A stretch of DNA of 64,000 bases from Thermoproteota archaeon (GCA_027491435.1 JAOZFG010000003.1:1-64000), one strand, 5' to 3'. Counted from the first letter of the stretch, positions 9,769 to 33,780 are shown. The notes: generated by a model from the letters alone, not told the origin. A program made the numbers and translations.

Positions 9769-9778
9769 CCTAAAACTA

Positions 9779-12509: not shown

Positions 12510-12515
12510 TTTAAA

Positions 12516-12965: not shown

Positions 12966-12997
12966 CTTCCTTCCCCCTCTAATTGCTTTTATGGAAC

Positions 12998-13007: not shown

Positions 13008-13025
13008 GAAAGAGATAAAAAAGAT

Positions 13026-14744: not shown

Positions 14745-14772
14745 TTTACCCCCTGCTAAAATGTATTTCTCA

Positions 14773-14784
14773 CCAATAAAAAGG
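14773..14784 (-). promoter_or_regulatory. BRE/TATA promoter of the 572-residue surface protein gene
   Basis: CCTTTTTATTGG on the minus strand, identical to the element before the secretion ATPase gene. It gives a short leader containing AGGGGGT ahead of the ATG at 14744. Confidence 0.55.
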
Positions 14785-14981
14785 TTTGGTCAATGACCAT
14801 TATTATAAACATGCGCTAAGACCGGATTTCTCGTATTAAGCTCTAAATTATCTCTTTATAGGGCGAAAATATGGAAAATTATGTTGTGTATGTTCAGATT
14901 CTACAAGCTTTACCTGATGACTATCAGAGATTATTTTGAATAAATAAGCTTAAGAAGATGTTTAAATATAAAATGGAGAGC

Positions 14982-15776
14982 TCACTTCGACTCCTCCTCA
15001 AAGATCTCTTCTATCCAGCTCGGCTCCTCTGATTCAACCTCTTTTCTCTCGAAGTAACCTAGCTGACCTAACAACATGACTATATAGAACCCTACGTATA
15101 TTATGGCACCGGCCCAGTTCCTCCTGAAGAAGTCTATTAGGATGTCAGCCCACTCAACTCCATACATTGAAAGCAAGTCTGGCAAAACATTTATAGCTCC
15201 TAAGGCTGACGAAGAGAGTGCAAACGTCAAAGCCTTACCGCTCCCCGTCTGAAGGTAAACGAGCGTCGTTACAATAACTCCGATGCTTCCTATAACCAGG
15301 AATATAGGCATGTAAACTGTCAAGGTAGCTGTAAGGATGGCTGGTGCTAGAGAGGAGAACCAGAACCAACCGAATGGGTCGTAAAGTAGCAGGGTGTGCA
15401 GGAAGAAGGAAGACCATAGAGTCAGGGGCAGGGAATAAATTGACCTCAGTCCTAGCAGCACTATACCGAAGGTCGCAACCATGGCTGAGGTGAACAGGAT
15501 CACGTTAGCCGACACGAACCACTGGAACTCAGTAGTAATTGATATTAAGCTTTTCATGGGGTTTAGGTTGTGGACTTCACCGCTAGAGAACCAGTACCAG
15601 AAAAGAGTAGCCTCTAACGACGTTATAGAGAGGAAGGTGGTTATAGTTAGGAGCATTATCTTTTCCCTTAACCTGATGAAGTTTATCACCAGCCTGACAA
15701 CCATCGCTACAGCAATAATCAGGCTAGTTAAGTGAGCGAACGAATAAGGAAACGTTAATAAACTGGTCAGATCCAT
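14982..15776 (-). CDS. Polytopic membrane protein of unknown function
   Basis: A 264-residue protein with about seven predicted membrane helices (for example FAHLTSLIIAVAMVVRLVI, VILFTSAMVATFGIVLL, LTATLTVYMPIFLVIGSIGV, WAGAIIYVGFYIVMLLGQL). A short acidic cytoplasmic tail (EEPSWIEEIFEEESK) ends the protein. No transporter or enzyme signature is visible. It starts 8 bp after the preceding gene (15785-16261) and so is co-transcribed with it, next to the pilus and prepilin peptidase genes. A role in the surface system is possible but unproved. Confidence 0.65.
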   Translation of the reverse strand: MDLTSLLTFPYSFAHLTSLIIAVAMVVRLVINFIRLREKIMLLTITTFLSITSLEATLFWYWFSSGEVHNLNPMKSLISITTEFQWFVSANVILFTSAMVATFGIVLLGLRSIYSLPLTLWSSFFLHTLLLYDPFGWFWFSSLAPAILTATLTVYMPIFLVIGSIGVIVTTLVYLQTGSGKALTFALSSSALGAINVLPDLLSMYGVEWADILIDFFRRNWAGAIIYVGFYIVMLLGQLGYFERKEVESEEPSWIEEIFEEESK

Positions 15777-17981: not shown

Positions 17982-18557
17982 ATGTGCCTGGATGAAGTAA
18001 GAGAATGGCCCGATAGAAAGGGGGTGCTTTACGCCGAGGTGAACGTGCCTGAGTTCGGAAAAGTGGTGTTGAAGGACGTGGTGATAATGTCTACCAGGTG
18101 GTGGTCGGACTTCATGTCAGGGATCTCCGTCATCTTCGGGGACAAGGCTTTGAGGCCCATTCTCTACTATTCAGCCTATCGGCTAATGAAGCAGCACAAC
18201 CAGAGGGGGCTCATCAGGAAGATTAGAGAGTACGCTGACATTGACTCCCCTGAGGCCAGGAGGAGGATGTTCCACGTCGCCTCTGAGGTTTTCGCTTGTC
18301 TGGGCTTCGGTAGGATAGAAGGGGTGGAGATTGATGAGAACCACATAAGGGCTGTGGTGAAGGAATCTTTTGAGGCTAGAGGGAGAAAGTCCTCATCTCC
18401 CGTGTGTCACTTCGTGGCTGGAGTCATAGCAGCCCTAATAGAAGACATTTACGGCCTTAGAATAGGCCCTGTAAGGGAGGAGAGGTGTTCAGCCATGGGA
18501 TCTGAATCCTGCCTCTTCGTCGCAGAGCTCATGGAGGAGAGACCCCATGAGGGTTGA
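17982..18557 (+). CDS. V4R-domain protein
   Basis: A 191-residue soluble protein. The C-terminal half carries the V4R (4-vinyl reductase-like) pattern: VCHFVAGVIAALIEDIYG, then VREERCSAMGSESCLFVAEL with its spaced cysteines. V4R domains bind small hydrophobic molecules or cofactors and often serve as sensors; the N-terminal ~80 residues match the family's helical dimer part. Its final codons overlap the start of the radical SAM-HTH gene by 11 bp, so the two are translated together. They sit immediately upstream of the CO dehydrogenase operon, which suggests a signal-sensing role in its control. The ligand is unknown. Confidence 0.75.
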   Translation: MCLDEVREWPDRKGVLYAEVNVPEFGKVVLKDVVIMSTRWWSDFMSGISVIFGDKALRPILYYSAYRLMKQHNQRGLIRKIREYADIDSPEARRRMFHVASEVFACLGFGRIEGVEIDENHIRAVVKESFEARGRKSSSPVCHFVAGVIAALIEDIYGLRIGPVREERCSAMGSESCLFVAELMEERPHEG

Positions 18558-19662
18558 GTCAGCCACTTTAGTCGTGAGGTCTGTAGGGAGGTGCTACCTT
18601 TCCTGTCCCTTTTGTCCCTGGAAGCTAAACAACTCGAGCTTTTTGGATAGATCCTCCCTGGAGGTAACGGTAGATGCGCTGATAGGCTCCATGTTTAAGC
18701 CCGACACCTACTTCATTTGTCCCGACCCCCTAGCCCATCCCGGCCTTGGAGAGTTAATCCAGACTGTTAGGGAGAGGAGGCTCCACGTGACCGTGTTCGT
18801 CCCCGCTTCCACAAGGGTTAGGGAAGTTAACTGGTCAAACCTTCTGAAGGCCGACCAGATCTTCCTATTTTCCTATAATGGCGATGAGCTTTTCGAAGCA
18901 GGTCCCCTGATAAGGTACCTGCTCATGAAGGGGGTCAGCGTTAAGTTAATGGCATTCGTTGTTCCCGGCATGAAACTCGACGAATTCGAGTCAATCATGG
19001 CTTATGCCCAGAGGAGAGGGCTGGAGCTCTGGGCCTCCCTGCCCATACTCTGCCCGATCTCAGAGTGCCCCATAAATCTAGTTAAATTGATGAAATCCTG
19101 GGGGTTCCACGTCACCGAGCCTATAGGGGAGTTCATGAGCGTTTACATGGTCAGAATGGCCTTCAAGGGGGATTACCCAGTTAGGGTCGTAGAGGGTCCC
19201 ATGTGTAGGAAGGACTGTAGGCTCCTCTTCTTAGATTCCAACGGGCTAGTCGGCAAGTGCCCAGCCAGCACTTTTCTAGGCATCTCTTCACCGCTTGAAT
19301 TCGCTGCTGTAGTCAGGAAGGGATGCACCAGGGTAGGGGAGAAGGTCAAGTACTCTTTCGTGACTTCGGTGAAGCTTGTCACCAGTGAAGGGGCCGAAAT
19401 CGATGAAAGGGATCTAGACCTACTCGCCTTATTGGAAGAAGTGGGTAGTTTAAGTAGCGCAGCGAAGATGCTGGGGGTTTCAACCCCTTCCGTGCTCAGG
19501 AGGGTAAGGAAGGTGGAGGAACTCCTAGGAATGAGGTTGTTGGTAAGTAGGAGGGGTGGAGTTGATAGAGGAGGTGTATTCCTAACACCTGAGGCTAGGG
19601 AACTCATAACCAAGTACAAGTCGGTGAAGTCCACCAGCAGCGTCCTCTCCAAGTTCACCTAA
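18547..19662 (+). CDS. Radical SAM protein fused to a ModE-like HTH domain
   Basis: A 371-residue protein. Residues 18-25 hold the radical SAM cluster motif CYLSCPFC (CX3CX2C). A partial TIM-barrel-like region follows, then extra cysteines (ILCPISEC, MCRKDC, KCPAS at about 160-240) like an auxiliary-cluster/SPASM region. Residues ~280-360 are a winged helix: LALLEEVGSLSSAAKMLGVS, then LGMRLLVSRRGGVDRGGVFLTPEARELI. Its wing and GG.GG..LTP end closely resemble the ModE/LysR DNA-binding domain. Fusion of radical SAM and ModE-type HTH is unusual. A perfect inverted repeat starts at the base after its stop, in front of cooF, so it may regulate the CO dehydrogenase operon. Confidence 0.8.
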   Translation: MRVESATLVVRSVGRCYLSCPFCPWKLNNSSFLDRSSLEVTVDALIGSMFKPDTYFICPDPLAHPGLGELIQTVRERRLHVTVFVPASTRVREVNWSNLLKADQIFLFSYNGDELFEAGPLIRYLLMKGVSVKLMAFVVPGMKLDEFESIMAYAQRRGLELWASLPILCPISECPINLVKLMKSWGFHVTEPIGEFMSVYMVRMAFKGDYPVRVVEGPMCRKDCRLLFLDSNGLVGKCPASTFLGISSPLEFAAVVRKGCTRVGEKVKYSFVTSVKLVTSEGAEIDERDLDLLALLEEVGSLSSAAKMLGVSTPSVLRRVRKVEELLGMRLLVSRRGGVDRGGVFLTPEARELITKYKSVKSTSSVLSKFT

Positions 19663-19685
19663 CGTTTTAACCTAGTGTTAAAACG
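19663..19685. promoter_or_regulatory. Perfect 9-bp inverted repeat, candidate operator
   Basis: CGTTTTAAC and GTTAAAACG flank a 5-base spacer, directly after the stop codon of the radical SAM-HTH gene and about 55 bases upstream of the likely cooF TATA box. The size and the CGTT...AACG ends resemble ModE-type dyads, consistent with the ModE-like HTH encoded next to it. The position would suit an activator. It could also be a terminator-like hairpin. Confidence 0.5.
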
Positions 19686-19718
19686 GGTCGTGATGCGTCT
19701 TTTATTGTTATAATATCG

Positions 19719-19738
19719 GAACAATTATTAAAATGTTC
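19719..19738. promoter_or_regulatory. cooF promoter: TATA box inside a GAACA-N10-TGTTC dyad
   Basis: TTATTAAAA (about 19726-19734) lies about 32 bases before the TTG start of cooF and is flanked by GAACA (19719-19723) and TGTTC (19734-19738). A protein bound to this dyad would cover the TATA box, as expected for a repressor site. The leader then carries the ribosome site AGGGGGT at 19752-19758. Confidence 0.45.
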
Positions 19739-19761
19739 GACTAAGGTGTTCAGGGGGTAAG

Positions 19762-20343
19762 TTGGAAGCGGTGACGATTCCGGAGTACTTGATTTACGTC
19801 GACCCATCCCGATGCGTCGGATGTAGGAGTTGCGAATTAGCCTGTGCTGTAGAGCACTCGTCATCCAAGACCCTTTACGGTGCAATAGCTGAGCTCCCCC
19901 CTCCCAGGCCTAGGACCAAGGTGATTCCAGCTGACGGAATATACGTGCCCATGAGGTGCATGCACTGCGATCCCGCTCCCTGCGTCGAGGCTTGTCCTAC
20001 AGGTTCCATGCACAAAACTGAGGAGGGGTTCGTGATATCCAACCCGAGGAAGTGTATAGGTTGTAGAACCTGTTTGCTAGCCTGTCCCTTCGGACATCCC
20101 AGCTACAGCAGTGAGAACAAGGTGATCAAGTGCGACCACTGTGTTGACAGGATTAGGGCGGGCCTTCCTCCTGCCTGCGTTGAAGCTTGTCCAACCGGGG
20201 CTTTAAGGTATGGTAGGGCCGAAGAACTGTTGGACGAGGAGAAGAGGAGGCGCGCTTTGGAGCTCATTCTGGGACTAGGCGAGGGAGGGGTCGTGTACAG
20301 AAAGGCCAGGGAAGGTGCTCTGCACGCCCTTCTAGGGAGGTGA
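19762..20343 (+). CDS. cooF: CooF-like ferredoxin for CO dehydrogenase
   Basis: A 193-residue polyferredoxin with four [4Fe-4S] binding runs: CVGCRSCELAC (about 14-24), CMHCDPAPCVEAC, CIGCRTCLLAC, and CDHC plus CVEACPTG. This is the CooF/HycB/DmsB arrangement. CooF takes electrons from the CO dehydrogenase CooS, whose gene begins 4 bp after this stop. The TTG at 19762 is chosen because AGGGGGT lies 4-10 bases before it and the family N-terminus (IYVDPSRCVGC) follows. First gene of the CO operon. Confidence 0.9.
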   Translation: MEAVTIPEYLIYVDPSRCVGCRSCELACAVEHSSSKTLYGAIAELPPPRPRTKVIPADGIYVPMRCMHCDPAPCVEACPTGSMHKTEEGFVISNPRKCIGCRTCLLACPFGHPSYSSENKVIKCDHCVDRIRAGLPPACVEACPTGALRYGRAEELLDEEKRRRALELILGLGEGGVVYRKAREGALHALLGR

Positions 20344-20347
20344 TGGT

Positions 20348-22273
20348 TTGGAGGAGAGAATTTATGAGAGGTTAATGAAGGCCTCCAGGAGGGAGTTCTA
20401 CGAGGGAGTTTCCTCCGACCCCACCGTCCCTCAGCTACTTGAGAAGGCCGAAAGGGATAAGATAGAGACTGTTTGGCACAGGTACCTAGCACAACAACCC
20501 CAGTGCGGTTTCGGCCTTCTGGGGGTGTGCTGCAGGAACTGCAACATGGGCCCCTGCAGGATAGACCCCTTCGGCTACGGCCCACAGAAGGGGGTTTGTG
20601 GGGCCACCGCCGATACTATAGTGGCGAGGAACCTGATGAGGATGCTGGCTGCTGGGGCTGCCGCCCATAGCGATCACGCTAGGGACATAGCTGAGGTGTT
20701 CATGGGCATACCGGAGGGTTGGGCCAAGGATTACGGGATAAATGACAGGGAGAAGTTGGTGGCCGTGGCCGAAAGGCTGGGCATCGAGACCGACGGCAAG
20801 GATGAAAAGGAGATAGCTAGAGAGATAGCTGAAATAGCTTTAATGGAGTTTGGTAAGCCTGGAGAAGATCCCCTTAAGTTCCTAGAAGCCTATGCTCCTG
20901 AGAAAAGGAAGGAGGTTTGGAAGAAGCTCGGGATAACTCCCAGGGCCATAGATAGGGAAGTGACGGAAATGATGCACAGGACTCACATGGGGGTGGACGC
21001 TGACCCACTTAGCTTGATAGCTCATGGGCTTAGAACGGCCCTAGCTGACGGGTGGAGCGGCTCCCTAATGGCAACCGAGTTGAGCGACATAATGTTCGGT
21101 ACCCCGAAGCCGATCAAGGTCTGGGCCAACCTGGGAGTGCTTAGAGAGGATGCGGTCAACATAATGGTTCATGGGCACAACCCCGTATTGTCCATGAAGA
21201 TAGTAGAGGCTGCCAAGGATCCGGAGCTCAACGAGTTAGCCAAAAAGCTGGGGGCCACTGGAGGAATAAACGTTGTCGGAATGTGTTGCACGGGAAATGA
21301 GGTCTTAGTGAGACTAGGTATTCCGGTAGCGGGCAACCTTTTGCAGCAAGAGTTGGCCATAATAACAGGGGCCCTTGAGGCTGTAGTGGTGGACTACCAG
21401 TGCATAATGCCTGCCCTGGTTGACGTTGCCTCCTGCTACCACACCAAGGTCATAACCACAGAGCCAAAGACCCATATCCCCGGGGCCTTACACATAGAGT
21501 TCGACAAGGCCAACGCCCTGGAGACCGCCAAGGAGATAGTGAGAGTCGCCGTGGAAAACTTCCCCAACAGGAGAAAGGACAGGGTTTTCATCCCTAAGGA
21601 GAAGATGGAAGCAGTAGTGGGCTTCAGCGTTGAGGCCATACTTAAAGCCTTAGGAGGCACCTTAAAGCCGCTGGCTGAGGCTTTGAAGGTCGGAAAGATT
21701 AAGGGGATAGCTGGGGTGGTCGGTTGCACCAACCCGAAGACAAGACACGATTACAGCCACGTCACAATAACTAAGGAGCTCATAAAGAACGACGTGCTGG
21801 TGGTGGGCACCGGTTGCTGGGCTATCACCATGAGTAAGGCCGGGTTGTTCAAGCCGGAAGCCGCTGAGTTGGCCGGTCCTGGGCTAAAGGAGGTGTGTAA
21901 GTCTCTGGGTATACCTCCAGCGCTTCACATGGGGAGCTGCGTCGACTGTTCGAGGATGTTAGTGGCTATAGCTGCCCTAGCTGACTACTTCGGGGTGGAC
22001 ATGTCCGATCTGCCCGTGGTGGGATCGGCTCCAGAGTGGATGAGCGAGAAGGCCGTCTCTATAGGGGCTTATTTCGTAGCCTCAGGGGTTCCCGTTCACC
22101 TAGGGACGGTGCCTCCAGTCTTGGGAAGCAAGAGGGTTGTGGAGATACTTACCGAGGAAGCTGAGAAGCTTGTAGGAGGTAAGTTCTTTGTTGAAACTGA
22201 CCCGAAGAAGGCAGCTGAGGCTATGCTGAACATAATAATTGAGAAGAGGAAGAGGTTGGGCTGGCCTGTCTAA
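20348..22273 (+). CDS. cooS: Ni-dependent CO dehydrogenase catalytic subunit
   Basis: A 641-residue CooS-type anaerobic CO dehydrogenase (CO + H2O to CO2 + 2e- + 2H+). Near residue 50 the B/D-cluster motif GVCCRNCNMGPCRI is complete. C-cluster regions are present as MCCTGNEVL, VVDYQCIMPALVDVAS, GVVGCTNPKT, VGTGCWAITMSKAG and MGSCVDCSRM. Length and motifs match the monofunctional CooS/Cdh class, not the archaeal acetyl-CoA synthase CdhA, and no ACS gene is nearby. The start is a TTG after GGAGGTGAT, 4 bp beyond cooF. Electrons should leave through CooF to the Hdr module encoded downstream. Confidence 0.95.
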   Translation: MEERIYERLMKASRREFYEGVSSDPTVPQLLEKAERDKIETVWHRYLAQQPQCGFGLLGVCCRNCNMGPCRIDPFGYGPQKGVCGATADTIVARNLMRMLAAGAAAHSDHARDIAEVFMGIPEGWAKDYGINDREKLVAVAERLGIETDGKDEKEIAREIAEIALMEFGKPGEDPLKFLEAYAPEKRKEVWKKLGITPRAIDREVTEMMHRTHMGVDADPLSLIAHGLRTALADGWSGSLMATELSDIMFGTPKPIKVWANLGVLREDAVNIMVHGHNPVLSMKIVEAAKDPELNELAKKLGATGGINVVGMCCTGNEVLVRLGIPVAGNLLQQELAIITGALEAVVVDYQCIMPALVDVASCYHTKVITTEPKTHIPGALHIEFDKANALETAKEIVRVAVENFPNRRKDRVFIPKEKMEAVVGFSVEAILKALGGTLKPLAEALKVGKIKGIAGVVGCTNPKTRHDYSHVTITKELIKNDVLVVGTGCWAITMSKAGLFKPEAAELAGPGLKEVCKSLGIPPALHMGSCVDCSRMLVAIAALADYFGVDMSDLPVVGSAPEWMSEKAVSIGAYFVASGVPVHLGTVPPVLGSKRVVEILTEEAEKLVGGKFFVETDPKKAAEAMLNIIIEKRKRLGWPV

Positions 22274-22274
22274 A

Positions 22275-23057
22275 ATGCCCCTGAGAGTCCTTGTAGCTGG
22301 AAAGGGCGGGGTTGGTAAAACCACGATCTCAGCCCTCCTCTCATTTTTTCTCTCATCTCGAGGAAAGAGAGTCCTGGCGGTGGACACTGATTCAGTGCCT
22401 AACTTGGCTCTCGCCCTAGGACTACCCCAGGAGGTCGCCTCATCAATAACCCCCCTAGTCAGGGATGAAGGGCTCGTCGAGGAAAGGACCGGTGCTAGGC
22501 CCGGGCAGAGCTGGGGGGTCTTCTTCAGGCTTAACCCTAAGGTTGACGACCTGATCTCCAAGTACGGGATAAGGGTTAGGGATGGCCTAAACCTCCTGGT
22601 GGTGGGAAGCATCGACTCGGCGAAGCAAGGTTGCTTATGTCCCTCTATAGCGCTTGTTAAGGCGCTGTTAAGGCACATAATGCTTGAAGAGGGGGATGTC
22701 GTGGTCGTGGACGCCGAGGCAGGGGCTGAGGTCTTCGGAAGGGGACTAGCTGAGAACTTCGACCAGATGTTATGCGTCTCAGAGCCCACAGTCAAGTCCT
22801 TGGAGGTATCCAGGAAGCTCATCGAGATGGGTAAGCAGTTGGGCATAAGGGGGATCTCTCTAGTGGTCAACAAGTTCCGTGGGGGGGCTGAACTGGAGGA
22901 AAGGATAAAGAACACGTTTGACGTCGACGTCTACTTCATCCCCTATGATGAGAGCTTCCTTCAGGCTGAGATGGAAGGTAGAGGGGCAGACACCTATCCT
23001 AAAGACTCTCCAGGAGTTAAATCGGCTCATAAGATATTTCTAGAGCTCTTCGGGTGA
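22275..23057 (+). CDS. cooC: CooC-like nickel-insertion ATPase
   Basis: A 260-residue MinD-type P-loop ATPase that helps load nickel into the CO dehydrogenase C-cluster. The deviant Walker A AGKGGVGKTT is at residues 8-17. Also visible are VDTDSVPNLA, the CooC-type Cys pair region KQGCLCPS (CxC, expected metal site at the dimer interface) and VVVDAEAGAE (Walker B). The ATG at 22275 is one base after the cooS stop and begins with the family's MPLRVLVAGKGG. The reading frame extends 12 codons upstream within cooS, but that is not needed. Confidence 0.9.
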   Translation: MPLRVLVAGKGGVGKTTISALLSFFLSSRGKRVLAVDTDSVPNLALALGLPQEVASSITPLVRDEGLVEERTGARPGQSWGVFFRLNPKVDDLISKYGIRVRDGLNLLVVGSIDSAKQGCLCPSIALVKALLRHIMLEEGDVVVVDAEAGAEVFGRGLAENFDQMLCVSEPTVKSLEVSRKLIEMGKQLGIRGISLVVNKFRGGAELEERIKNTFDVDVYFIPYDESFLQAEMEGRGADTYPKDSPGVKSAHKIFLELFG

Positions 23058-23061
23058 TCTC

Positions 23062-25011
23062 ATGGACGTTAAAGTCGGAATTTACGTCTGTCACTGCGGT
23101 AAGAATATAGCTGGAAAGGTAGACGTGGTTAAAGTGGCCAATGAGCTCAGGAAGGATCCTAGAGTTTCAGTGAGCAGGCATTACTTCTTCATGTGCAGCA
23201 GCTCCGGTCAAGAGATCATAAAGCGGGACATTGAAGCTGGAAGGGTGAATAGGATCGTGGTGGCGGCGTGTAGCCCTAAGTTACACGAGCCCCTGTTCAG
23301 GAGAGTTGTCAGCGAAGCTGGACTCAACCCAGGGTATTATGAACAGGCCAACATAAGGGAGCTCGTATCCTGGTCAACTGAGGACCCTGAGAAGGCAACT
23401 GAGAAGGCCATAAGGTACACGAGAGCTGCCTTAGAGAAGGTCGTGTCAGCTCAGCCCATAGAGGTTAAGGAAGTTCCCGTCAACAGGGAGGCGCTAGTGA
23501 TAGGGGGAGGAGTTGCAGGCCTGACTGCAGCCCTAGACTTGGCTGAGAAGGGGATAAGGGTCCACCTGGTTGAGAAGAAGCCCACAATAGGGGGAATGAT
23601 GGCCCTCTTCGACAGGGTGTTTCCCACGGGCGATTGCTCCCTCTGCATACTGACGCCTATGATGGCCGAGGCCGAGGCTCATCCGAACATAACAATTTAC
23701 ACGAACTCCGAGGTCCTCGATGTGTCTGGTTCCGTGGGGAACTTCAGGGTGAGGGTGAGGAAGGACGCTAGATACGTGGACCTCGAGAAGTGTGTGACCT
23801 GTGACACCTGCTCCAAGGAGTGCCCAGTTGAGGTTCCCAACGAGTGGGACGCTTACCTGGGGACCAGAAAAGCCATCTACATACCCTATCCCCAGGCCGT
23901 GCCTCGAGCTTACGTGGTAGACCCCGACAGCTGTCTCTACTTCAGAGACGGTAGCTGCAGGAGATGCGAAGAGGTTTGCCCTACTAAGGCGATAAACTTG
24001 GATCAGGAGCCCGAGATCCTAGAGCTGGAAGTGGGCGCCATAATAGTGGCCACTGGGATGAAGGAGTATAACGCTTCAAACTTAAAGAACTACGGCTACG
24101 GCAAGTATCAGGACGTGATAACTCAATTCGGGTTTGAGAGGCTAGTTAACGTTACAGGGCCAACTCAGGGCGAGATAAGGAGGCCCAGCGACGGGAGGGT
24201 TCCTAAAAGGTTCGTCTTCATACAGTGCGCCGGAAGCAGGGACGTGAACCACAACCCCTACTGCTCCAACGTCTGTTGCATGGTGACGCTCAAGCAGGCC
24301 GAGATAATCAGAAGCGAGATACCTGACAGCCAGGTTTACGTGTGCTACATAGACATGAGGACCCCTAAGAGGGGGTTTGAGGAGATGTACGCGAGGGTCA
24401 GGCAGGAGGGCGTCACCTTCATCAGGGGTAAGCCTGGGGAGGTCAGGAGGGAGGGAGATCATCTAATCGTCGAAGTCTTCGACGAGACCCTAGGGAAGAA
24501 GCTGATGCTTGAGGCAGACATGGTGATACTAGCGGCCGGCTTATCGCCCTCTGATGGCACCATAGGAATTAAAGAGGTGCTTAACGTTGGCGCTGACTCT
24601 TATGGATTCCTTCAGGAGCTTCACCCCAAGCTAAAGCCAGTTCAGACTTCTAGACCAAGTATTTTCATATGTGGTGGAGCACAGGGGCCTAAAGACATTC
24701 CTGACTCCGTGACTCAAGCTAAAGCGGCTGCTAGCGAGGCCTCTGCCCTCCTGATAAGGGGTAAGGTGGAGATTCCAGGGGAGAGGGCTTACGTAAAGCC
24801 GGAGCTCTGCACTGGCTGTGGGGCCTGCGTGGAGGAGTGCCCGTTCCAGGCCATAGAGCTAGTTGAGGGTAAGGCCAGGGTCATTGAGGCCGCCTGCGCT
24901 GGATGTGGGATATGTCAGGGGGTATGTCCCAAGGGAGCCATCGAGAGGAGGCTCTACACTGGAGAGGAAGTTTTGAACCAAGTTGACGGCCTGTTGGAGG
25001 TGATAGGTTGA
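23062..25011 (+). CDS. hdrA: Heterodisulfide reductase subunit A-like flavoprotein
   Basis: A 649-residue HdrA. The N-terminal segment has VCHCGKNIAG and CSSSGQE. The FAD Rossmann motif GGGVAGLTAALDLAEKG lies at about 150-166 and the HdrA-type cluster stretch FPTGDCSLCILTP near 191. An inserted ferredoxin run CVTCDTCSKEC plus CRRCEEVCP follows, then CAGSRDVNHNPYCSNVCC near 390 and two C-terminal [4Fe-4S] sites (CTGCGACVEEC, CAGCGICQGVC). HdrA bears the FAD that splits or merges electron pairs. Here it is encoded between cooC and an MvhD-like gene rather than in a methanogenesis locus, suggesting CO-derived electrons feed the flavin. Confidence 0.92.
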   Translation: MDVKVGIYVCHCGKNIAGKVDVVKVANELRKDPRVSVSRHYFFMCSSSGQEIIKRDIEAGRVNRIVVAACSPKLHEPLFRRVVSEAGLNPGYYEQANIRELVSWSTEDPEKATEKAIRYTRAALEKVVSAQPIEVKEVPVNREALVIGGGVAGLTAALDLAEKGIRVHLVEKKPTIGGMMALFDRVFPTGDCSLCILTPMMAEAEAHPNITIYTNSEVLDVSGSVGNFRVRVRKDARYVDLEKCVTCDTCSKECPVEVPNEWDAYLGTRKAIYIPYPQAVPRAYVVDPDSCLYFRDGSCRRCEEVCPTKAINLDQEPEILELEVGAIIVATGMKEYNASNLKNYGYGKYQDVITQFGFERLVNVTGPTQGEIRRPSDGRVPKRFVFIQCAGSRDVNHNPYCSNVCCMVTLKQAEIIRSEIPDSQVYVCYIDMRTPKRGFEEMYARVRQEGVTFIRGKPGEVRREGDHLIVEVFDETLGKKLMLEADMVILAAGLSPSDGTIGIKEVLNVGADSYGFLQELHPKLKPVQTSRPSIFICGGAQGPKDIPDSVTQAKAAASEASALLIRGKVEIPGERAYVKPELCTGCGACVEECPFQAIELVEGKARVIEAACAGCGICQGVCPKGAIERRLYTGEEVLNQVDGLLEVIG

Positions 25012-25877
25012 GAGTAGTGGGTTTCTGTTGCAATGAGTGCGCCTACGCCGCAGCTGACCTGGCCGGTAGCACCCACAGGGTCCACCCGCCTGAGGTGTTA
25101 GTGGTTAGGATACCTTGCTCAGGGATCGTTGACCCATCTTGGCTCGTGTACGCCTTAGCTAAGGGGGCTGACGCCGTGTTCGTAGCGGGTTGCAGGAAAG
25201 GAGAGTGTCACTACGTTGATGGAAACTTCAAGGCCGAGTCGAGGGTCGCCTTCGTCAAGGAGCTCCTCAAGTCAGTTGGAGTAGAGCCGGAGAGAGTGGA
25301 GATGTTCTTCATGGCCGCCTCAGAACCTCACAAGTTCGTGGAGGCCGCCAAGGAGATGGTAAGGAGGGTCGAGGAGCTTGGTCCCTTGGAGAGGAAGGGG
25401 GCCCCGAAGAGGGAAGGTAAGAAGGGCGTGATAGCCAGCTCCCTCCTGGCAATAGCTAAAACCGTCATTGACGCTCCGTTGCCGGAGATACCTGGGTTTA
25501 GAGTTCCTAACTTCTCAAGTGAGTGCATAGGGTGTGGTGCCTGCGTTGAGACCTGTCCTGAGAGGGCGTTGAAGGTGAGGGACTACAACGGGAAGAGGGT
25601 TATAGAGCTTAACGCCAGGAGGTGCACCTCGTGCGGCAAGTGCGTCGAGGTCTGCGACGAGGTAGAGAAGGCGCTAACCTTGGGAGGGATGACACTAAAA
25701 CAGCTTTTGGAGGAGTGGTCAGTCGTCTCTGCTCACGATCTAGTTGAGTGCGAGGTCTGCGGGAGGCCCTTCGCTACACAGAGGGAGCTCGACAGGTCAG
25801 GTTCCCCGAAGGTCTGCCCCTCATGTAAGGAGAGGTTATCGGCTAGGGCCATGGTCGTAGGGAGGGTAGGGCCGTGA
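25008..25877 (+). CDS. MvhD-like electron-transfer subunit fused to ferredoxin and zinc-ribbon domains
   Basis: A 289-residue protein. Residues 1-125 are an MvhD/FrhD-type [2Fe-2S] domain (GFCCNECAY, VRIPCSGIVDP, AGCRKGECHY), the subunit that normally docks hydrogenase or formate dehydrogenase onto HdrA. Residues ~165-220 form a two-cluster ferredoxin (CIGCGACVETCPE, CTSCGKCVEVC). The last ~45 residues hold a CEVCG...CPSC zinc-ribbon-like pair. The TTG start overlaps the hdrA stop by 4 bp. In this operon the likely partner is CooS/CooF, which is inference from gene order. Confidence 0.85.
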   Translation: MRVVGFCCNECAYAAADLAGSTHRVHPPEVLVVRIPCSGIVDPSWLVYALAKGADAVFVAGCRKGECHYVDGNFKAESRVAFVKELLKSVGVEPERVEMFFMAASEPHKFVEAAKEMVRRVEELGPLERKGAPKREGKKGVIASSLLAIAKTVIDAPLPEIPGFRVPNFSSECIGCGACVETCPERALKVRDYNGKRVIELNARRCTSCGKCVEVCDEVEKALTLGGMTLKQLLEEWSVVSAHDLVECEVCGRPFATQRELDRSGSPKVCPSCKERLSARAMVVGRVGP

Positions 25878-26347
25878 TCGAGGAGATCAAGTCCATCTCC
25901 GGTCAGGACGTCAACTTGTGCTACCAGTGCGGCGAGTGCTCATCTTCCTGCCAGGTAGCAGGGGTTGATGGCTTTTACCCAAGCGTCCTAATTCACAGGA
26001 TAAAACTTGAGGACCCCGGAGTGCTGGATGAGAGAAAGTTTGAGGTCTGCCTGCACTGCTTCCTCTGTACCGTGAGGTGTCCACAAGGCATAAGCTTCCC
26101 AGACGTAGCGACAGCCCTTTCGAACATTTGGGTCAAGAGATACGGTCCTGACAGGGTTGAGAGGGCTTTCCTAAAGGAGTTGAGGGAGAGGGGTTTCATA
26201 AACCCGGTAAGGGTTGCCCTCTCGGCTTTAGGGCTTCACTCCTTCAAATCTCTGAGTTCCAAGGCTTTGAAGCTAATGAGGGCTTCTTCAAGGTCGGGGA
26301 AGGTTAGGGAGGACCTCCTTAAGGAGGTGAGGGAGATTGTCCCCTGA
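25874..26347 (+). CDS. hdrC: Heterodisulfide reductase subunit C-like
   Basis: A 157-residue iron-sulfur protein with two [4Fe-4S] motifs, CYQCGECSSSC (residues 16-26) and CLHCFLCTVRC (about 58-68), separated by the FYPSVLIHRIKL helix as in HdrC. It links HdrA to HdrB. GTG start overlaps the preceding gene by 4 bp and its own end overlaps hdrB by 11 bp, so the three Hdr subunits are translationally coupled. Confidence 0.88.
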   Translation: MIEEIKSISGQDVNLCYQCGECSSSCQVAGVDGFYPSVLIHRIKLEDPGVLDERKFEVCLHCFLCTVRCPQGISFPDVATALSNIWVKRYGPDRVERAFLKELRERGFINPVRVALSALGLHSFKSLSSKALKLMRASSRSGKVREDLLKEVREIVP

Positions 26348-27068
26348 GGTGTCCTACTACCCGGGGTGCACTGGGACGACCACCGAGAGGGCCTATGTCA
26401 AGACGGCCCTCATGGTCTTGAAAGACCTTGGCTTTGAGGTGAGGCTGTTAGAAGACCTCCCCTGCTGTGGAACTCTGGAAGCCGAGCTGGTCGATGTCTC
26501 AATAACTAAGAGGTTAGCCTCTCTGATAAACAGGGAGGCTGGGAACGTCATAACCGGATGTAGCGGGTGTTACAGCAATATAAAGAGGGGAGGGGGCGAG
26601 GCTACCCACCTCCTGCACTTCTTGGTGAAGGAGGTAGGCCTTAGCGAGGTCAAGAATAGGGTAAAACGTCCATTGAGGTTGAAGGTGGCTCCATATTATG
26701 GGTGTCAGGCCCTAAGGCCTAGATTCCTAGCCATAGACGATCCTGAGGATCCTAAGATCTTTGAGGAGCTTTTGATGGCTATAGGAGCTGAGCCTGTGGA
26801 GTTTGATATGAGGATCAAGTGTTGCGGTGGACCCATTTCGCTGAGGAGACCTTTAGAGGCTAGGAAGATGGCCGAAGAGGTTGTTAAGTCGGCTAATATG
26901 GCAGGAGCTGAAGTTGTAGCTACGATGTGCAACCTGTGTCACTTCATGCTTGACTACTACACTAACGAAATGCCGGTGCTCCACTTCACCCAGCTGGTGG
27001 CCCTGGCCTTCGGGCATCCATTCGAAGAGATGGATTTTGAGGAGCACTACAATAGGGTTTTGAGGTGA
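26337..27068 (+). CDS. hdrB: Heterodisulfide reductase subunit B-like
   Basis: A 243-residue protein with CCG-domain features: YYPGCTG at the start, DLPCCGTLEAE (about 38-47) with TGCSGCYSN, and a second set YYGCQALRP, RIKCCGGPISL and MCNLCHFMLD. These are the cysteines that hold the non-cubane [4Fe-4S] clusters where HdrB reduces a disulfide. In methanogens the substrate is CoM-S-S-CoB. No methanogenesis gene lies in this window, so the acceptor here is unknown. TTG start inside the end of hdrC. Confidence 0.88.
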   Translation: MSPEVSYYPGCTGTTTERAYVKTALMVLKDLGFEVRLLEDLPCCGTLEAELVDVSITKRLASLINREAGNVITGCSGCYSNIKRGGGEATHLLHFLVKEVGLSEVKNRVKRPLRLKVAPYYGCQALRPRFLAIDDPEDPKIFEELLMAIGAEPVEFDMRIKCCGGPISLRRPLEARKMAEEVVKSANMAGAEVVATMCNLCHFMLDYYTNEMPVLHFTQLVALAFGHPFEEMDFEEHYNRVLR

Positions 27069-27072
27069 TATC

Positions 27073-27261
27073 ATGTGTGAGGGTGTAGTTTTCCTGGTGA
27101 GGGATGGTGAGAGGGTCAAGGTCATGGAAAACGTTGTCTCCCTCCACCTGAAGGGTGGAAGGGCCATACTGGTTGACGACTTCGGGAGGGACAAAGTGAT
27201 AGAGGGGGTTAAAGAGGTAAGGGTAAACATGGTGGCCCACGAGATCACCCTCTACCCCTAA
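27073..27261 (+). CDS. cooT: CooT-like nickel-binding accessory protein
   Basis: A 62-residue protein starting MCEGVVFLV. The Met-Cys start is the hallmark of CooT, a small dimeric nickel-binding protein encoded near CO dehydrogenases; Cys2 is the nickel ligand. The rest is a compact beta protein ending in VRVNMVAHEITL. It starts 4 bp after hdrB and closes the CO operon: its stop lies inside a terminator-like hairpin. Same-size HypC-like/translation-related folds are an alternative, but MCE plus context favour CooT. Confidence 0.85.
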   Translation: MCEGVVFLVRDGERVKVMENVVSLHLKGGRAILVDDFGRDKVIEGVKEVRVNMVAHEITLYP

Positions 27262-27275
27262 ACCTTTTTTAGGGG
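27255..27275 (+). terminator. Hairpin with T-run at the end of the CO dehydrogenase operon
   Basis: CCCCTAAA (27255-27262) pairs perfectly with TTTAGGGG (27268-27275) around CCTTT, overlapping the cooT stop codon and containing a run of six T. It marks a likely 3' end before the membrane protein gene at 27302. Confidence 0.55.
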
Positions 27276-28124: not shown

Positions 28125-29141
28125 TCAGCATATTCTCGGAACCACTGCCCCTAGGGGCCTCTCCATCACTCTAAGCCCGCCCACCTTAGTTTCCAAGATC
28201 ACCATTCCTCGATACTTGGAGCTCTCCTTGACCTCGCCTATTATCGAGGCCCTATCGCACCCTCTCTCCTTAAGGAAGTTTAACACGTCCTCAGAGACCT
28301 CCGGGCTAACTCCCAGGACGGCCTTGCCCTCTGAGGCCAGTTGCAATGGGTCCACTCCCAGAAGCTCTGAGAGGGCCTTAACTTCTTCGGCTATTGGTAT
28401 CGATTCCTCCCTAACGGTTATTAGGAGGCCAGTCTTGGAGGCCCACTCGTTCAGGACCTGCGCTAAACCTCCTCTAGTTGGATCTTGGGCAGCCCTTATC
28501 TGGTCCCCGAACTCCTCTAGGAGGGGGAGCATAACCTGGGTCAGAGGCTTGACGTCGCTCTCAACGCCTTCAATCCCCTGTTGAGCTGCTAGTATAGCGG
28601 CTCCGTGATCCCCAACCGTTCCTGTAACCAGCAACTTATCTCCAGGTTTTAAGGAGGAGTCCAGTATCGGCTTCTCAGCCCAACCCACGCCTACGGTTGT
28701 TATCACCACGCCCCTCAAATCTCCGAAGGGCATGACCTTGAAGTCCCCGCCTACAAGCTTAACGCCGTTCTCCCTAAAGACCTGAATCATGCTGGAGGTT
28801 ATCTTCTTGAGCTCCTCTAACTCAAAGCCCTCCTGAACTATGATTGAGTCCATAGCTGCTACAGGCTTGGCTCCCATCATTAGAACGTCGTTAATCGTGC
28901 CGGACGCTGCTAATACCCCGAGGTTGCCTCCGGGAAAGAAGGGCGGATTTACCGTGTAGGAGTCGACGCTCATCACCAGGTGATTCTCGCCTGCAGGCAG
29001 TGTGGCTCCATCATCTAGTTCATCAGTCCCGACCCCTCCCTCAACCCTCTTCATGTCCTCATCCAGTAGGGAGAGGATGAGCTTTTGTACCATGTCTTGG
29101 GTGGCCTTTCCTCCAGCCCCGTGAGATAAGTTCACTCTCAT
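28125..29141 (-). CDS. hypE: Hydrogenase maturation protein HypE
   Basis: A 338-residue PurM-like protein that dehydrates a thiocarbamoyl group on its C-terminal Cys to make the cyanide ligands of the NiFe site. The N-terminal HGAGGKATQDMV, the ATP-binding SVDSYTVNPPFFPGG, and LLVTGTVGDHGAAIL are family blocks. The protein ends in PRIC, the required C-terminal cysteine. It is the last gene of the hydrogenase operon, right behind hypC. Confidence 0.95.
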   Translation of the reverse strand: MRVNLSHGAGGKATQDMVQKLILSLLDEDMKRVEGGVGTDELDDGATLPAGENHLVMSVDSYTVNPPFFPGGNLGVLAASGTINDVLMMGAKPVAAMDSIIVQEGFELEELKKITSSMIQVFRENGVKLVGGDFKVMPFGDLRGVVITTVGVGWAEKPILDSSLKPGDKLLVTGTVGDHGAAILAAQQGIEGVESDVKPLTQVMLPLLEEFGDQIRAAQDPTRGGLAQVLNEWASKTGLLITVREESIPIAEEVKALSELLGVDPLQLASEGKAVLGVSPEVSEDVLNFLKERGCDRASIIGEVKESSKYRGMVILETKVGGLRVMERPLGAVVPRIC

Positions 29142-29363
29142 CTAATCACCTAAAGATTCCAGCAGCTCTTGCCAGGTCTTTATCATATCCTTAGCCTCCT
29201 CCTCGTTAACTTTTGAGATTATCATGCCCACGTGAACGATAACGTAGTCGCCTGGGCTAACCTCCTCCAGCGTGGCGTCTACCTCCCTCCTTATCCCGTT
29301 GAAGTCGACAAGGGCCCTCCTGCCCTTAACCTCGATAACCCTACCGGGAATCCCCAGGCACAT
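29142..29363 (-). CDS. hypC: Hydrogenase maturation chaperone HypC
   Basis: A 73-residue protein starting MCLGIPGRVIEV, the HypC/HybG signature; Cys2 carries the Fe(CN)2CO unit. The central RRALVDFNGIRREVD and GDYVIVHVGMIISKV are typical. It overlaps the end of the ATPase-type hypB by 23 bp and abuts hypE. Confidence 0.95.
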   Translation of the reverse strand: MCLGIPGRVIEVKGRRALVDFNGIRREVDATLEEVSPGDYVIVHVGMIISKVNEEEAKDMIKTWQELLESLGD

Positions 29364-30111
29364 TGATTATCACCTCCACCAGGTCGTTAAAGGCTCTCTC
29401 AAGCTCTGGAGAAGACTTATGCGGTGGATCGCCGGACCTGATAGCCTCCTCTACCGAGGGCTCCATGGGTATTCTGGCTATCACCCTAACGCCCAAGTTC
29501 GAGTAGTCGACCTCGCCGAAGGGCTTCACCTTCTCGCCCCCACAGCTCAGATAGCTCATGTTCTCAACTACTCCCAGCAGGGAAAATCTCTCGTCCCTTA
29601 TCATGTTAATGGCCCTCCTCACGACCTCGATGGAGGCCTTAGATGGAGTGGTGACCACCAACACCTTAGACTTCCTCCTGTTAAACGACCTGAGGGCCCA
29701 GAGGAACTCATCACCTGTGCCAGGGGGCATGTCAACCACCAGGTTATTGGCCGACCACTTGGTCATGGCCATCATCGTGTAAATCAGGGGCCACTTGTCC
29801 TCACCCTTGAACGGGAGGGGAGTCCCTTCCGTGAGTAAGGCTAGGGACATGTACTCCACCTCACCTCTCCTCGCCGGTATTAACCCCTCCTTGCTGGCCC
29901 TTACCCTGCCAACACCTAGAAAAGATGTTGTTGATGGTCCGTGAAGGTCTAGGTCAAGAAGGCCCACCGACAGGCCCCTGTCTGCCATGGTCAGAGCTAA
30001 ACAGGAGGAGACGAAGCTCTTGCCCACGCCTCCCTTTCCCGAAGCTACTATCACCACCCTTTCAAATTCAGAAGCCTTCTTAAGGGCCCATCTTCCCAAG
30101 AAGTCGTTCAT
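29341..30111 (-). CDS. hypB: ATPase-type HypB (Mrp/MinD family) nickel chaperone partner
   Basis: A 256-residue MinD/Mrp-like ATPase: deviant Walker A ASGKGGVGKS (about 23-32), switch DLDLHGPS, NNLVVDMPPGTGDE, and a CGGEK segment near 190. It is not the GTPase-type HypB. In Thermococcales an Mrp/MinD-type ATPase replaces HypB and works with HypA in nickel delivery. The position between hypA and hypC supports the same role here. It overlaps hypA by 4 bp. A general Fe-S carrier (Mrp/ApbC) function cannot be excluded. Confidence 0.8.
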   Translation of the reverse strand: MNDFLGRWALKKASEFERVVIVASGKGGVGKSFVSSCLALTMADRGLSVGLLDLDLHGPSTTSFLGVGRVRASKEGLIPARRGEVEYMSLALLTEGTPLPFKGEDKWPLIYTMMAMTKWSANNLVVDMPPGTGDEFLWALRSFNRRKSKVLVVTTPSKASIEVVRRAINMIRDERFSLLGVVENMSYLSCGGEKVKPFGEVDYSNLGVRVIARIPMEPSVEEAIRSGDPPHKSSPELERAFNDLVEVIINVPGDSR

Positions 30112-30533
30112 CTGGATCCCTCCAGCCTAGAAACCCTGATTCCCTTGCCTTTAATCGCCTGGAAGTCCCTGCTCTGACATTTAGGGCACTTAATCAGGGC
30201 TGGGGCCAGCTCGGGTATGAAGTGAACAGAGCTTTCCTCAACGCCCTCCTCTAACACCTTCCTGTCACCCTCTATCAGCTCGTGAGAGAACTCCCACTCG
30301 TTGCCGCACCTGGAACACCTGAACACCGTAGGCTCCTCAACGACCGAGAATTCTACGCTCTCAAAGGACCCTCCCTTGGATAGCTCTGTTAGGGCCTCCT
30401 TCAGCAGGGATCCGTCCAGCTCCATCACGCTACCATAACTGACTTCTACGAAGTGAACGTTGGACAGGCCCTCTGACTTGGCCAAGTCTTCCAGGGCATC
30501 TAGGATCATAAACGCAATTGACCACTCGTGCAT
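30108..30533 (-). CDS. hypA: Hydrogenase nickel insertion protein HypA
   Basis: A 141-residue protein whose canonical start MHEWSIA (nickel-binding His2-Glu3) is the ATG at 30533. Five further codons are open upstream but would hide that N-terminus. The zinc site is formed by CSRCGNEW and CPKCQS, separated by an extended ~45-residue loop as in archaeal HypA. The start overlaps the protease gene stop by one base (TGATG). Confidence 0.93.
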   Translation of the reverse strand: MHEWSIAFMILDALEDLAKSEGLSNVHFVEVSYGSVMELDGSLLKEALTELSKGGSFESVEFSVVEEPTVFRCSRCGNEWEFSHELIEGDRKVLEEGVEESSVHFIPELAPALIKCPKCQSRDFQAIKGKGIRVSRLEGSR

Positions 30534-31087
30534 CAGGCGCCCCCACACCTGAACATGCCTTCAAGAAAGGCCTTCTCGTTCACCTTCATGGGGAACCCCC
30601 TCTTCCCTAACTCCCTAGTTAGCAGGCGAAGGGCCTTTAAACTGGCTGTCACAACTTCATCTGAAAGATTTTCCCCGAGATCTACCTCTTTAACGGCGAT
30701 CCCCACCACGTAAGCCTCTGGCAGGTATCCCAAGGAGGCTGCAGCCGCCAGCAGAATGTCTGGTGTTATCCCGTGGCTACCGTACTCGGCGACCATCCTT
30801 ATGGCCTCCCTAGACACTTGGGGGTTCACCTTGTACAGGATCACTTGCCCTGGCTCTCCCTGGACGGCATCCACTATGTAGGCCAGCTCAACCCCCTCAA
30901 AATAGTCAAGGAGGTTCAGGCCTCCAAGCCCGCCATCAACCACCAGAAGCCACTCATGATTAATCAGGGAGCCCAGGACCTCGGCGAAGCAGGAGCCCAC
31001 CCCGTCGTCCCCGAGGAGCCTGTTGCCCACACCCATTATCAGGACCTTAGGGCCTCCCTTAACAGGTTCTCCATGACTTGGACACAT
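30533..31087 (-). CDS. NiFe hydrogenase maturation protease
   Basis: A 184-residue HycI/HyaD-type endopeptidase that removes the C-terminal peptide of the large subunit after nickel insertion. The family N-terminus KVLIMGVGNRLLGDDGVG and later VDGGLGG, VDAVQGEPG and GSHGITP blocks are visible, including the Asp/His nickel-sensing positions. The ATG at 31087 overlaps the upstream gene by 49 bp. An internal ATG at 31036 would cut the first beta-strand, so the longer start is preferred. Its substrate should be the large subunit encoded in the same operon. Confidence 0.88.
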   Translation of the reverse strand: MCPSHGEPVKGGPKVLIMGVGNRLLGDDGVGSCFAEVLGSLINHEWLLVVDGGLGGLNLLDYFEGVELAYIVDAVQGEPGQVILYKVNPQVSREAIRMVAEYGSHGITPDILLAAAASLGYLPEAYVVGIAVKEVDLGENLSDEVVTASLKALRLLTRELGKRGFPMKVNEKAFLEGMFRCGGA

Positions 31088-31668
31088 TTTCCATCATCTT
31101 CCCAACTTCCTTCAATTATCGAGAACCTTTTAACCCCGGCTAGAACGGCTAGAGCGGTGGCCAAGTCCTCAGGGTCCCTGGACCCGGTCATAGATTTGGA
31201 TATTAGCTCGTTCGCCTCCACCTTATCCCCTGGGACCTCAGCCTGAAACTCCCTTTTGGAGAGCTCACAGGGCCCCTCCTCTATCCTCACTATGACCACT
31301 TGGTCCGGTCCCATTTGCCTGATCTCCTCGACGTCTGCCAGCGGATAGTGGGTGACGTCCATCAGCCTCACGCCAGGGAACTTGGGCAACCTATCTACGG
31401 GAACGTCAGCTGACATGTATAGCACGAGTTTAGTACCCATCCTTATCACCTTTCCGCCCGCCCTCAGGCCAGATAGTTCAGACACTCCGAGGGACCTGAG
31501 CACCTCCTCCTTCATCTTGTCCACGTCCTCATCTCTGGCGTTGGGCATCTGGTAAAGGAATCCCTCCACTCCAAGGAGTTTGAGGGCTTCTCCTTTTACC
31601 TTGGCCTTCTGATCCTCTACCTCTCTAGCTATTGACAGGAAGACCTTCACGACCTCTTTAAGGTTCAT
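31039..31668 (-). CDS. Unknown protein of the hydrogenase operon
   Basis: A 209-residue soluble protein with no recognisable domain, transmembrane helix or metal-binding Cys cluster (only two isolated cysteines, one in GPCELSK). Helical N-terminus, a beta-rich middle (GTKLVLYMSADVPVDRLPKFPGVRLMDVTHYPLA), and a helical end. The ATG at 31668 with GGGTG before it is preferred to a TTG at 31680. Its place between the HdrD-like subunit and the protease suggests a hydrogenase-specific assembly or electron-transfer role, but this is context only. Confidence 0.6.
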   Translation of the reverse strand: MNLKEVVKVFLSIAREVEDQKAKVKGEALKLLGVEGFLYQMPNARDEDVDKMKEEVLRSLGVSELSGLRAGGKVIRMGTKLVLYMSADVPVDRLPKFPGVRLMDVTHYPLADVEEIRQMGPDQVVIVRIEEGPCELSKREFQAEVPGDKVEANELISKSMTGSRDPEDLATALAVLAGVKRFSIIEGSWEDDGKCVQVMENLLREALRS

Positions 31669-31684
31669 CGGGACACCCAAAAAA

Positions 31685-33004
31685 TTATGGGAGGTAGTCC
31701 TGGAGGTAGGAGACTATGTGAACCGCCTTAAACTCCTTGCCGAACTTCTTGGCCCCTTTGTTTATCGTGTGGATGCAGGTGGAGCACCCGGTGACTACGA
31801 GCTCCGCCCCTGACTCTTCTATCTCGTCCACTTTGTTCTTGACGGCGACTAGGTGATCTTTCTCAAGCTCCTCACAGAACTTGGCACTGGAGATTAATTC
31901 GCCCAGCAGCTCCCTCAGCATTCTCCTCCCCTCCTCGGCCATTAAAGATATTCCAGTCCCCCCTCCGCAGCAGTGGGAGTACATCCCTATACCCTTTGGT
32001 AGGTCCCTGTACTGCTTTGAGGTGGCTTTAATCAGGTGCCTGGGCTCCTCTATGAGGCCGCCTCCCCTAGCCATCTTGCAGGGGTCGTGCCAAGTCACCT
32101 TAACCCCGTCTTGTTTCAGATTGAGCTTGCCCTCGGAGTACATTTCGTGGAGGAGTTCTACCACATGAATCACCTTGAAGGGAGCCCTTTCACCGAGCAC
32201 GAAGGGGAGCTCGAACCTTAAGTCCATGTAGGGAGTGCCTCCATGGGATAGCAGCGCCGCCTTCCCTTTGTGGGACTTCACGTAATCCACTATCCTCTTG
32301 AAGACCACCTTTCTGGCCTTCTTGTCGCCCATTATGGTTCCTAACGCCGGTTCTATGGCCAGGGGTTTGGAGGGCATGCTCCAGTTCAGGTTAAGCTTGT
32401 CGAGAAGTTTGACCGTGTCAACTATGACCTCTGGAGTGAGTATGGCCTCTATAAGCCAGGGAAGGTATATTAGGTCGGCTGGCCTGTCAAGGGGAAGCTC
32501 CCCGCCAATTGCCTCCTGAGCCCTCTTAAGCGCCTCGTTCCAAGCGCTAATAAGCCCGTTGGGGAAGTTCCCTGAAACTTCCACGTCCTTTAGTACGGTG
32601 AGGCAGGAGGGGGTCATCCCAACCCTATCTATTATCTGCCTGAGCATCATGATGAGCTCTCCGCTATAAATGCCTAGGGGACACGTCTGGTAGCAGTACC
32701 TGCAGTTGGTACACCTGTAAGCCATCTCCCTTATCCTTTCCAAGTCCTCTTTGTCCCTGGGGAGCTTAGCCCCCACCAGCTCACCCAGAATTTTGCCCGC
32801 GAAGGTCATCTCCTTCCTGTAGATGAACCTCATCTCCTCAGCCTTGTTGACGGGCTCGTACTTGACGTCTGCGTAGTAGAATGGGCAGTGAGGTCCGCAA
32901 AGGCCGCAGGAAACGCAGCCCTCCAGGTAATGTAACCTAACAGGGTCTACCTCCCTGAGAACTGATCTTATGGCCTCTTGAACGCTCATAACCCCCTCCT
33001 CCAT
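31685..33004 (-). CDS. HdrD/DsrK-like iron-sulfur subunit of the membrane hydrogenase
   Basis: A 439-residue protein with two [4Fe-4S] ferredoxin motifs (CVSCGLCGPHC about 26-36 and CTNCRYCYQTC about 97-107) followed by CCG-type cysteine regions (WHDPCKM, SHCCGGG, TGCSTCIH). This is the HdrD/DsrK/HmeD/Isp2 plan. Together with the cytochrome b subunit, whose gene overlaps it by 19 bp, it would pass electrons between the hydrogenase and a membrane carrier or a thiol/disulfide couple. Confidence 0.85.
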   Translation of the reverse strand: MEEGVMSVQEAIRSVLREVDPVRLHYLEGCVSCGLCGPHCPFYYADVKYEPVNKAEEMRFIYRKEMTFAGKILGELVGAKLPRDKEDLERIREMAYRCTNCRYCYQTCPLGIYSGELIMMLRQIIDRVGMTPSCLTVLKDVEVSGNFPNGLISAWNEALKRAQEAIGGELPLDRPADLIYLPWLIEAILTPEVIVDTVKLLDKLNLNWSMPSKPLAIEPALGTIMGDKKARKVVFKRIVDYVKSHKGKAALLSHGGTPYMDLRFELPFVLGERAPFKVIHVVELLHEMYSEGKLNLKQDGVKVTWHDPCKMARGGGLIEEPRHLIKATSKQYRDLPKGIGMYSHCCGGGTGISLMAEEGRRMLRELLGELISSAKFCEELEKDHLVAVKNKVDEIEESGAELVVTGCSTCIHTINKGAKKFGKEFKAVHIVSYLQDYLP

Positions 33005-33771: not shown

Positions 33772-33780
33772 ACTCCCCCC

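Follow-up and report, generated by a model that had tools for sequence, protein, structure and literature searches.

Bifurcating Hdr enzymes have been described with H2, formate, F420H2 or NADH as electron donors (PMC5861303), and Hdr-like clusters of orthologous groups co-occur with some groups of Ni-dependent CO dehydrogenases (Ni-CODHs), in gene clusters of CODH and acetyl-CoA synthase (CODH/ACS; PMC6344411). A 2023 survey deemed the korarchaeal HdrABC/MvhD units that occur without hydrogenase and without Mcr puzzling (PMC10667645). Here we describe an operon that joins genes for a Ni-CODH to genes for HdrABC and MvhD. It lies on a 64,000-nucleotide stretch from a hot-spring Thermoproteota archaeon (GCA_027491435.1, JAOZFG010000003.1:1-64000; the window), whose genome belongs to the korarchaeal group, measures 1.64 Mb and is 99.5% complete. 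The partner swap, with a CODH in place of the hydrogenase before HdrABC-MvhD, is strongly supported, and on balance the operon probably encodes a cytoplasmic CO-fed HdrABC-MvhD complex that bifurcates electrons to ferredoxin and a disulfide. No description of a CODH-fed HdrABC was found in the literature searched; an earlier mention of the cluster in korarchaeal papers is possible.

Organization of the operon

The eight genes cooF, cooS, cooC, hdrA, mvhD, hdrC, hdrB and cooT, named in a preliminary description of the window, were all found head to tail on the plus strand at positions 19762-27261, and, as that description had stated, the operon contains no hydrogenase subunit and no ACS gene. 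The junctions had been given as overlaps or gaps of 4 bp. The packing is indeed tight and the 4-bp spacing holds for most junctions, with gaps at cooF/cooS, cooC/hdrA and hdrB/cooT and overlaps at hdrA/mvhD and mvhD/hdrC, but hdrC and hdrB overlap by 11 bp (longest open reading frame), and cooS is separated from cooC by 1 bp when the ATG at 22275 is taken as the cooC start; the longest open reading frame of cooC, from 22239, overlaps cooS. The hairpin at which the operon was said to end is present at 27255-27275 on the same strand, with an 8-bp stem (CCCCTAAA-CCTTT-TTTAGGGG) that overlaps the cooT stop codon. A transcript end at this position is possible, but the hairpin has no T-tail and is absent from the terminator scan list. 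Upstream of cooF, the intergenic region 19663-19761 contains A/T-rich, TATA-like stretches on the plus strand and is probably the operon promoter. The gene order is not due to chance, since an order of 8-10 genes recurs in other genera, with gene-dependent protein identities of approximately 40-81%.

Conservation in Korarchaeia and related loci

In a sample of 29 genomes of the phylum, a long form of MvhD is encoded in 9, all of which also have the same type of cooS. The stretch from cooS through hdrB lies on one contig in seven of these nine genomes, the window genome included and three genera represented, and is cut by contig ends in the other two; the single-contig genome G009 has the same cluster. 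The proposed genome search for cooS adjacent to hdrA and mvhD returned seven korarchaeal genomes with contiguous genes, and, in another order, a metagenome-assembled genome of the Archaeoglobales (locus L051). In seven genus-mates that are at least 92% complete (G012, G013, G015-G018, and G021), cooS, FlpD, and HdrA are jointly absent. Because the genomes are related, these observations describe the linkage of a block and are not nine independent tests. A different korarchaeal CODH type was seen in L036 and L037 (genomes G020 and G002), where cooF-cooS is followed by a FAD/NAD(P)-dependent oxidoreductase-like gene and cooC, and the G020 cooS carries an in-frame TGA. There is also a second korarchaeal set, unlinked to cooS, in which a short MvhD stands beside two proteins of the HdrA kind, a full HdrA and an HdrA-like protein of only about 440 aa; it is located at G009:C1:1125786-1129437 and at like places in G010, G022, G019, and G026.

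For comparison outside this group, the 80 CooS loci from GTDB genomes that are nearest to the window CooS were used. The nearest archaeal loci have in common a helix-turn-helix (HTH) gene followed by cooF-cooS-cooC; where examined, a V4R gene and cooT are present as well. On most contigs of sufficient length, this cassette is followed by genes for a NiFe hydrogenase of the complex-I-like kind and by antiporter-like genes (L042, L048, L053, L046, L047, and L049), and a hydrogenase-type continuation is seen in Desulfurococcales, Thermococci, and Methanodesulfokora. The methanogenic Methanodesulfokora washburnensis (L040, contig G026:C70), which is among the genus- and family-mates of the window genome and belongs to the same family, has cooF-cooS-cooC-cooT and immediately after it an energy-converting hydrogenase operon at L040:8381-19911, a cluster predicted to carry out hydrogenogenic CO oxidation. 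The Archaeoglobales locus is built of the same parts as the window operon in a different order, hdrA-hdrC-hdrB-mvhD-V4R-HTH-cooF-cooS-cooC, and has the same fused MvhD. In the CooS tree, well-supported branches part the two Hdr-linked groups, indicating that the Hdr linkage changed at least twice. In the HdrA tree, by contrast, the L051 protein groups with the CODH-linked HdrA of Korarchaeia (support 84/85, long branches), so that the Hdr genes of the two lineages may have a common ancestry despite the two changes seen with CooS. Recurrence of the arrangement in related archaea and once in an unrelated lineage points to a putative, uncharacterized CO-driven enzyme complex.

Subunits and cofactor ligands

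CooF (19762-20343) was recognized from profile matches and motifs as a polyferredoxin with 16 cysteines, sufficient for four [4Fe-4S] clusters. CooS (20348-22273) is a monofunctional Ni-CODH of the CooS type (TIGR01702, 779 bits, cutoff 478) with a CX7C D-cluster, in which the ligand motifs of the B-, C-, and D-clusters and the catalytic His and Lys motifs are complete; the nearest solved structure is 6t7j (1015 bits). The Ni-insertion ATPase CooC (22275-23057) matches its profile and contains the P-loop GKGGVGKT and the CxC motif CLCP, and CooT (27073-27261; PF10133, 43.1 bits) is a small Ni accessory protein.

HdrA (23062-25011), the FAD- and FeS-containing core subunit, matches 5odc_A over residues 3-645 (657.7 bits) as well as the HdrA2/HdrA models. 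The FAD motif, the unusual C-x-GSRD...C...CC cluster together with the following Lys, and the two [4Fe-4S] clusters of the C-terminal ferredoxin domain are all kept. HdrC (25874-26347) has two [4Fe-4S] motifs, identified by profile and motif, and HdrB (26337-27068; PF02754) has two CCG motifs for two non-cubane clusters. All ten cysteines of HdrB lie within these two motifs and are conserved in seven species, and its predicted structure compares to solved HdrB with TM values of 0.83-0.84. Together with the FlpD/MvhD subunit, the three proteins have the composition and the cluster ligands of an HdrABC-MvhD set.

The length and domain make-up of MvhD (25008-25877; FlpD domain PF02662, 157.7 bits) are odd and go beyond the preliminary description. 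The protein has 289 aa, compared with 129-141 aa in solved MvhD, and combines the FlpD [2Fe-2S] domain with a HycF-like 2[4Fe-4S] ferredoxin and a zinc ribbon; HycF is the subunit of the replaced hydrogenase that has this ferredoxin and zinc-ribbon make-up. The cysteines of this extra C-terminal part, which form two [4Fe-4S] motifs and a CxxC...CxxC zinc ribbon, are conserved in seven species. Outside MvhD proteins, the part is best matched among the loci by the HycF-like subunit encoded in the CODH-hydrogenase cluster of L042, and a profile of such subunits scores the MvhD C-termini at 54-83 bits (L051, 75 bits) over both the ferredoxin and the zinc ribbon, against 39 bits for an ordinary ferredoxin domain. 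None of 14 other genomes whose CooS is related encodes a fused MvhD. Judged from these sequence matches, it is plausible that the HycF-like domain serves as an adaptor from CooF to HdrA. A single origin of the fused MvhD is not rejected (approximately unbiased test, p 0.19), and two separate MvhD fusions are therefore not claimed.

Other redox partners in the genome

Whole-genome searches found one FlpD, one HdrA, and one CODH/prismane-family gene, which is cooS. The preliminary description had named a separate hydrogenase using this HdrABC-MvhD set as a case that would speak against a CODH partner. Such an enzyme was not found in the genome: its one NiFe hydrogenase is group-1-like, has a small subunit of the Tat type and is accompanied by genes for a membrane anchor, and as an exported enzyme it was rejected as the Hdr partner. 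The genome contains no Mvh/Frh-type hydrogenase (MvhA/MvhG) and no NiFe subunit of the energy-converting type, and the hdr genes are found beside cooS instead. CdhA or another ACS-type CODH, as required for CODH/ACS in the Wood-Ljungdahl pathway (WLP), is likewise absent from the genome. FrhB/FdhB was rejected as a partner because the genome has no PF04432 match. DsrC, absent from the genome, was rejected as a disulfide carrier, and the earlier suggestion to look for mcr, followed through on the whole genome, gave no McrA. Other CCG-domain proteins of HdrD-like size and a complex-I-like 49-kDa subunit are encoded in the genome. The earlier proposal that CooS/CooF holds the place of MvhAG or a formate dehydrogenase is strongly supported by the lack of any other partner genome-wide, the presence and absence of the whole block, the conserved gene order, the Archaeoglobales locus, and the HycF-like adaptor.

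Proposed electron path and alternative explanations

In the proposed complex, CooS would oxidize CO to CO2 and pass the electrons out via the B- and D-clusters to CooF. By analogy with solved complexes, they would then move through the two-cluster HycF-like domain of MvhD and its [2Fe-2S] cluster to the HdrA flavin, where the pair would be split. One electron would reach ferredoxin via the C-terminal clusters of HdrA, and the second would pass through HdrC and the two non-cubane clusters of HdrB to a disulfide. Reduced ferredoxin could be re-oxidized by the complex-I-like enzyme of the genome. Flavin-based bifurcation of CO electrons to ferredoxin and a disulfide is the most probable mode of action, whereas confurcation, which the preliminary description had offered beside it, is unlikely in the sense of CO formation in a genome without ACS-type CODH. 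For the CO/CO2 couple at 80 °C and 0.1 atm CO2, the potential is about -555 mV at 1 atm CO and about -345 to -275 mV at 1e-6 to 1e-8 atm, values that take in the 25 °C standard value and the Nernst term only. Bifurcation would matter at trace CO because the couple is there too high for direct ferredoxin reduction.

Several observations weigh against a CO-fed bifurcating complex. A genome without Mcr and without DsrC offers no known disulfide substrate. The predicted structure of MvhD, computed from 4 sequences, has a pLDDT of 54, which is too poor for docking, and it was not used. The korarchaeal HdrB proteins (26337-27068 and L027-L032) are shorter than methanogen HdrB by about 50 aa. In their second CCG motif, the residue that follows the first Cys is Gln or Leu, where the three methanogen HdrBs displayed and L051 have His; the shorter protein without that His hints that the disulfide may differ from that of methanogens. 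Finally, CO is a strong reductant and at high pressure reduces ferredoxin directly, so that bifurcation would then not be needed. This last point, together with the complete HdrBC ligands, fits a CO:disulfide reductase that does not bifurcate, in which HdrB would take both electrons, as a redox sink or as a valve that detoxifies CO, and ferredoxin would be left unreduced or be reduced separately via CooF. We consider this unlikely, as HdrA has kept its flavin site, the unusual Cys cluster, and, at the C terminus, both of the ferredoxin clusters that serve ferredoxin in solved bifurcating complexes, all of which would be superfluous for a simple sink.

The operon could also encode two enzymes under common induction by CO, with CooS-CooF reducing free ferredoxin and ferredoxin being the only link to a separate HdrABC-MvhD. 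Operons often group enzymes that are functionally and not physically linked, and the order of the Hdr genes is unlike between Korarchaeia and the Archaeoglobales locus. However, in known complexes MvhD acts as the adaptor on the side of the dehydrogenase, the HycF-like domain was gained only beside CODH, and a partnerless HdrABC-MvhD would have no electron input in this genome, which makes two enzymes a rather improbable arrangement. Very improbable is a complex that runs toward CO formation or takes formate or H2 from the neighboring membrane dehydrogenases as its true donor. The same window does contain a NiFe hydrogenase and the last part of a formate dehydrogenase operon, but the small subunit of the hydrogenase carries a Tat signal, the formate dehydrogenase belongs to the membrane FdnGHI type, FdhB/FrhB is missing, and the genome has no ACS/CdhA to use CO. 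The more specific proposal that a CO-driven bifurcating enzyme for ferredoxin and a non-methanogenic disulfide, with a HycF-type entry domain fused on MvhD, was assembled separately in Korarchaeia and Archaeoglobales for trace CO is tentative and falls somewhat short of probable.

If the CO-fed bifurcating complex is correct, CO would be a new donor for HdrABC, and the complex would explain archaeal use of CO too scarce for direct ferredoxin reduction. CODH would also give a partner to the korarchaeal HdrABC/MvhD units regarded as puzzling (PMC10667645). The locus represents a cassette swap, the hydrogenase having been replaced behind the same regulator and CODH, and its function can be tested from one eight-gene operon.

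Probable regulatory genes and neighboring loci

A regulator pair at 17982-19662, which the preliminary description did not include, precedes the operon on the plus strand. The first gene (17982-18557) encodes a V4R-domain protein (Pfam V4R, 44.9 bits), and the second (18547-19662) a protein with an N-terminal radical-SAM-like CxxxCxxC part and a C-terminal LysR/ModE-type HTH (matches to HTH_1 and ModE). Other korarchaeal clusters have a V4R orthologue with 50-60% identity at the corresponding position, V4R genes are located 5' of the CODH cassette in L042 and L051 too, and the HTH gene is kept upstream of cooF in Korarchaeia, Desulfurococcales, Thermococci, and Archaeoglobales. CorQR, a pair comprised of a LysR-type HTH protein and a V4R protein, activates CODH genes in Thermococcus onnurineus (PMC6557876 and PMC4791640). 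The window likewise has adjacent V4R and LysR-type HTH genes beside a CODH, and by analogy the pair is likely a CorQR-like CO-responsive regulator, predicted to switch the operon on with CO.

The NiFe hydrogenase is encoded at 33781-36782 within a minus-strand block (28125-36782) that has its own maturation genes and lies 1-9 kb downstream of the operon. This block also encodes TmcC/HmcE-like and DsrK-like (CCG domain) subunits and contains hypE, hypC, mrp-like, hypA, and protease genes; it may be a second redox module linked to a disulfide in this genome, which lacks both Mcr and DsrC. At 61995-63968 on the minus strand, the window edge truncates an operon for a membrane formate dehydrogenase (FdnGHI-like), of which the end is present. 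Judged by eye, 6116-15776 is a type IV pilus/archaellum-like locus (ATPase, TadC-like, and several pilin-like proteins), and 43272-43942 (minus strand) encodes a PIN-domain-like protein that has a small partner upstream; the two resemble a VapBC toxin-antitoxin pair.

Comparison with known systems

The MvhADG-HdrABC complex of hydrogenotrophic methanogens (5ODC; related Hdr complex 8RVU) is alike in HdrA over nearly its full length, in FlpD, HdrB, and HdrC, and in the cluster ligands. In contrast to that complex, the korarchaeal operon has CooS/CooF for MvhA/MvhG, a HycF-like extension of MvhD, and a shorter HdrB, with no Mcr or known heterodisulfide. FdhAB-HdrABC and MetFV-HdrABC-MvhD (Moorella) are precedents for HdrABC-MvhD with other partners (PMC5861303), the partner here being a Ni-CODH with CooF. 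Hdr genes near Wood-Ljungdahl CODH/ACS clusters occur in the setting of ACS and the WLP, whereas the korarchaeal genome has no ACS-type CODH. The CODH-energy-converting hydrogenase clusters of Thermococcus and Desulfurococcales have the same V4R-HTH-cooF-cooS-cooC-cooT cassette, a HycF-like subunit, and the nearest CooS outside Korarchaeia; in contrast to these clusters, hdrA-mvhD-hdrC-hdrB replace the membrane hydrogenase and the Mrp-like antiporter genes in the operon described here.

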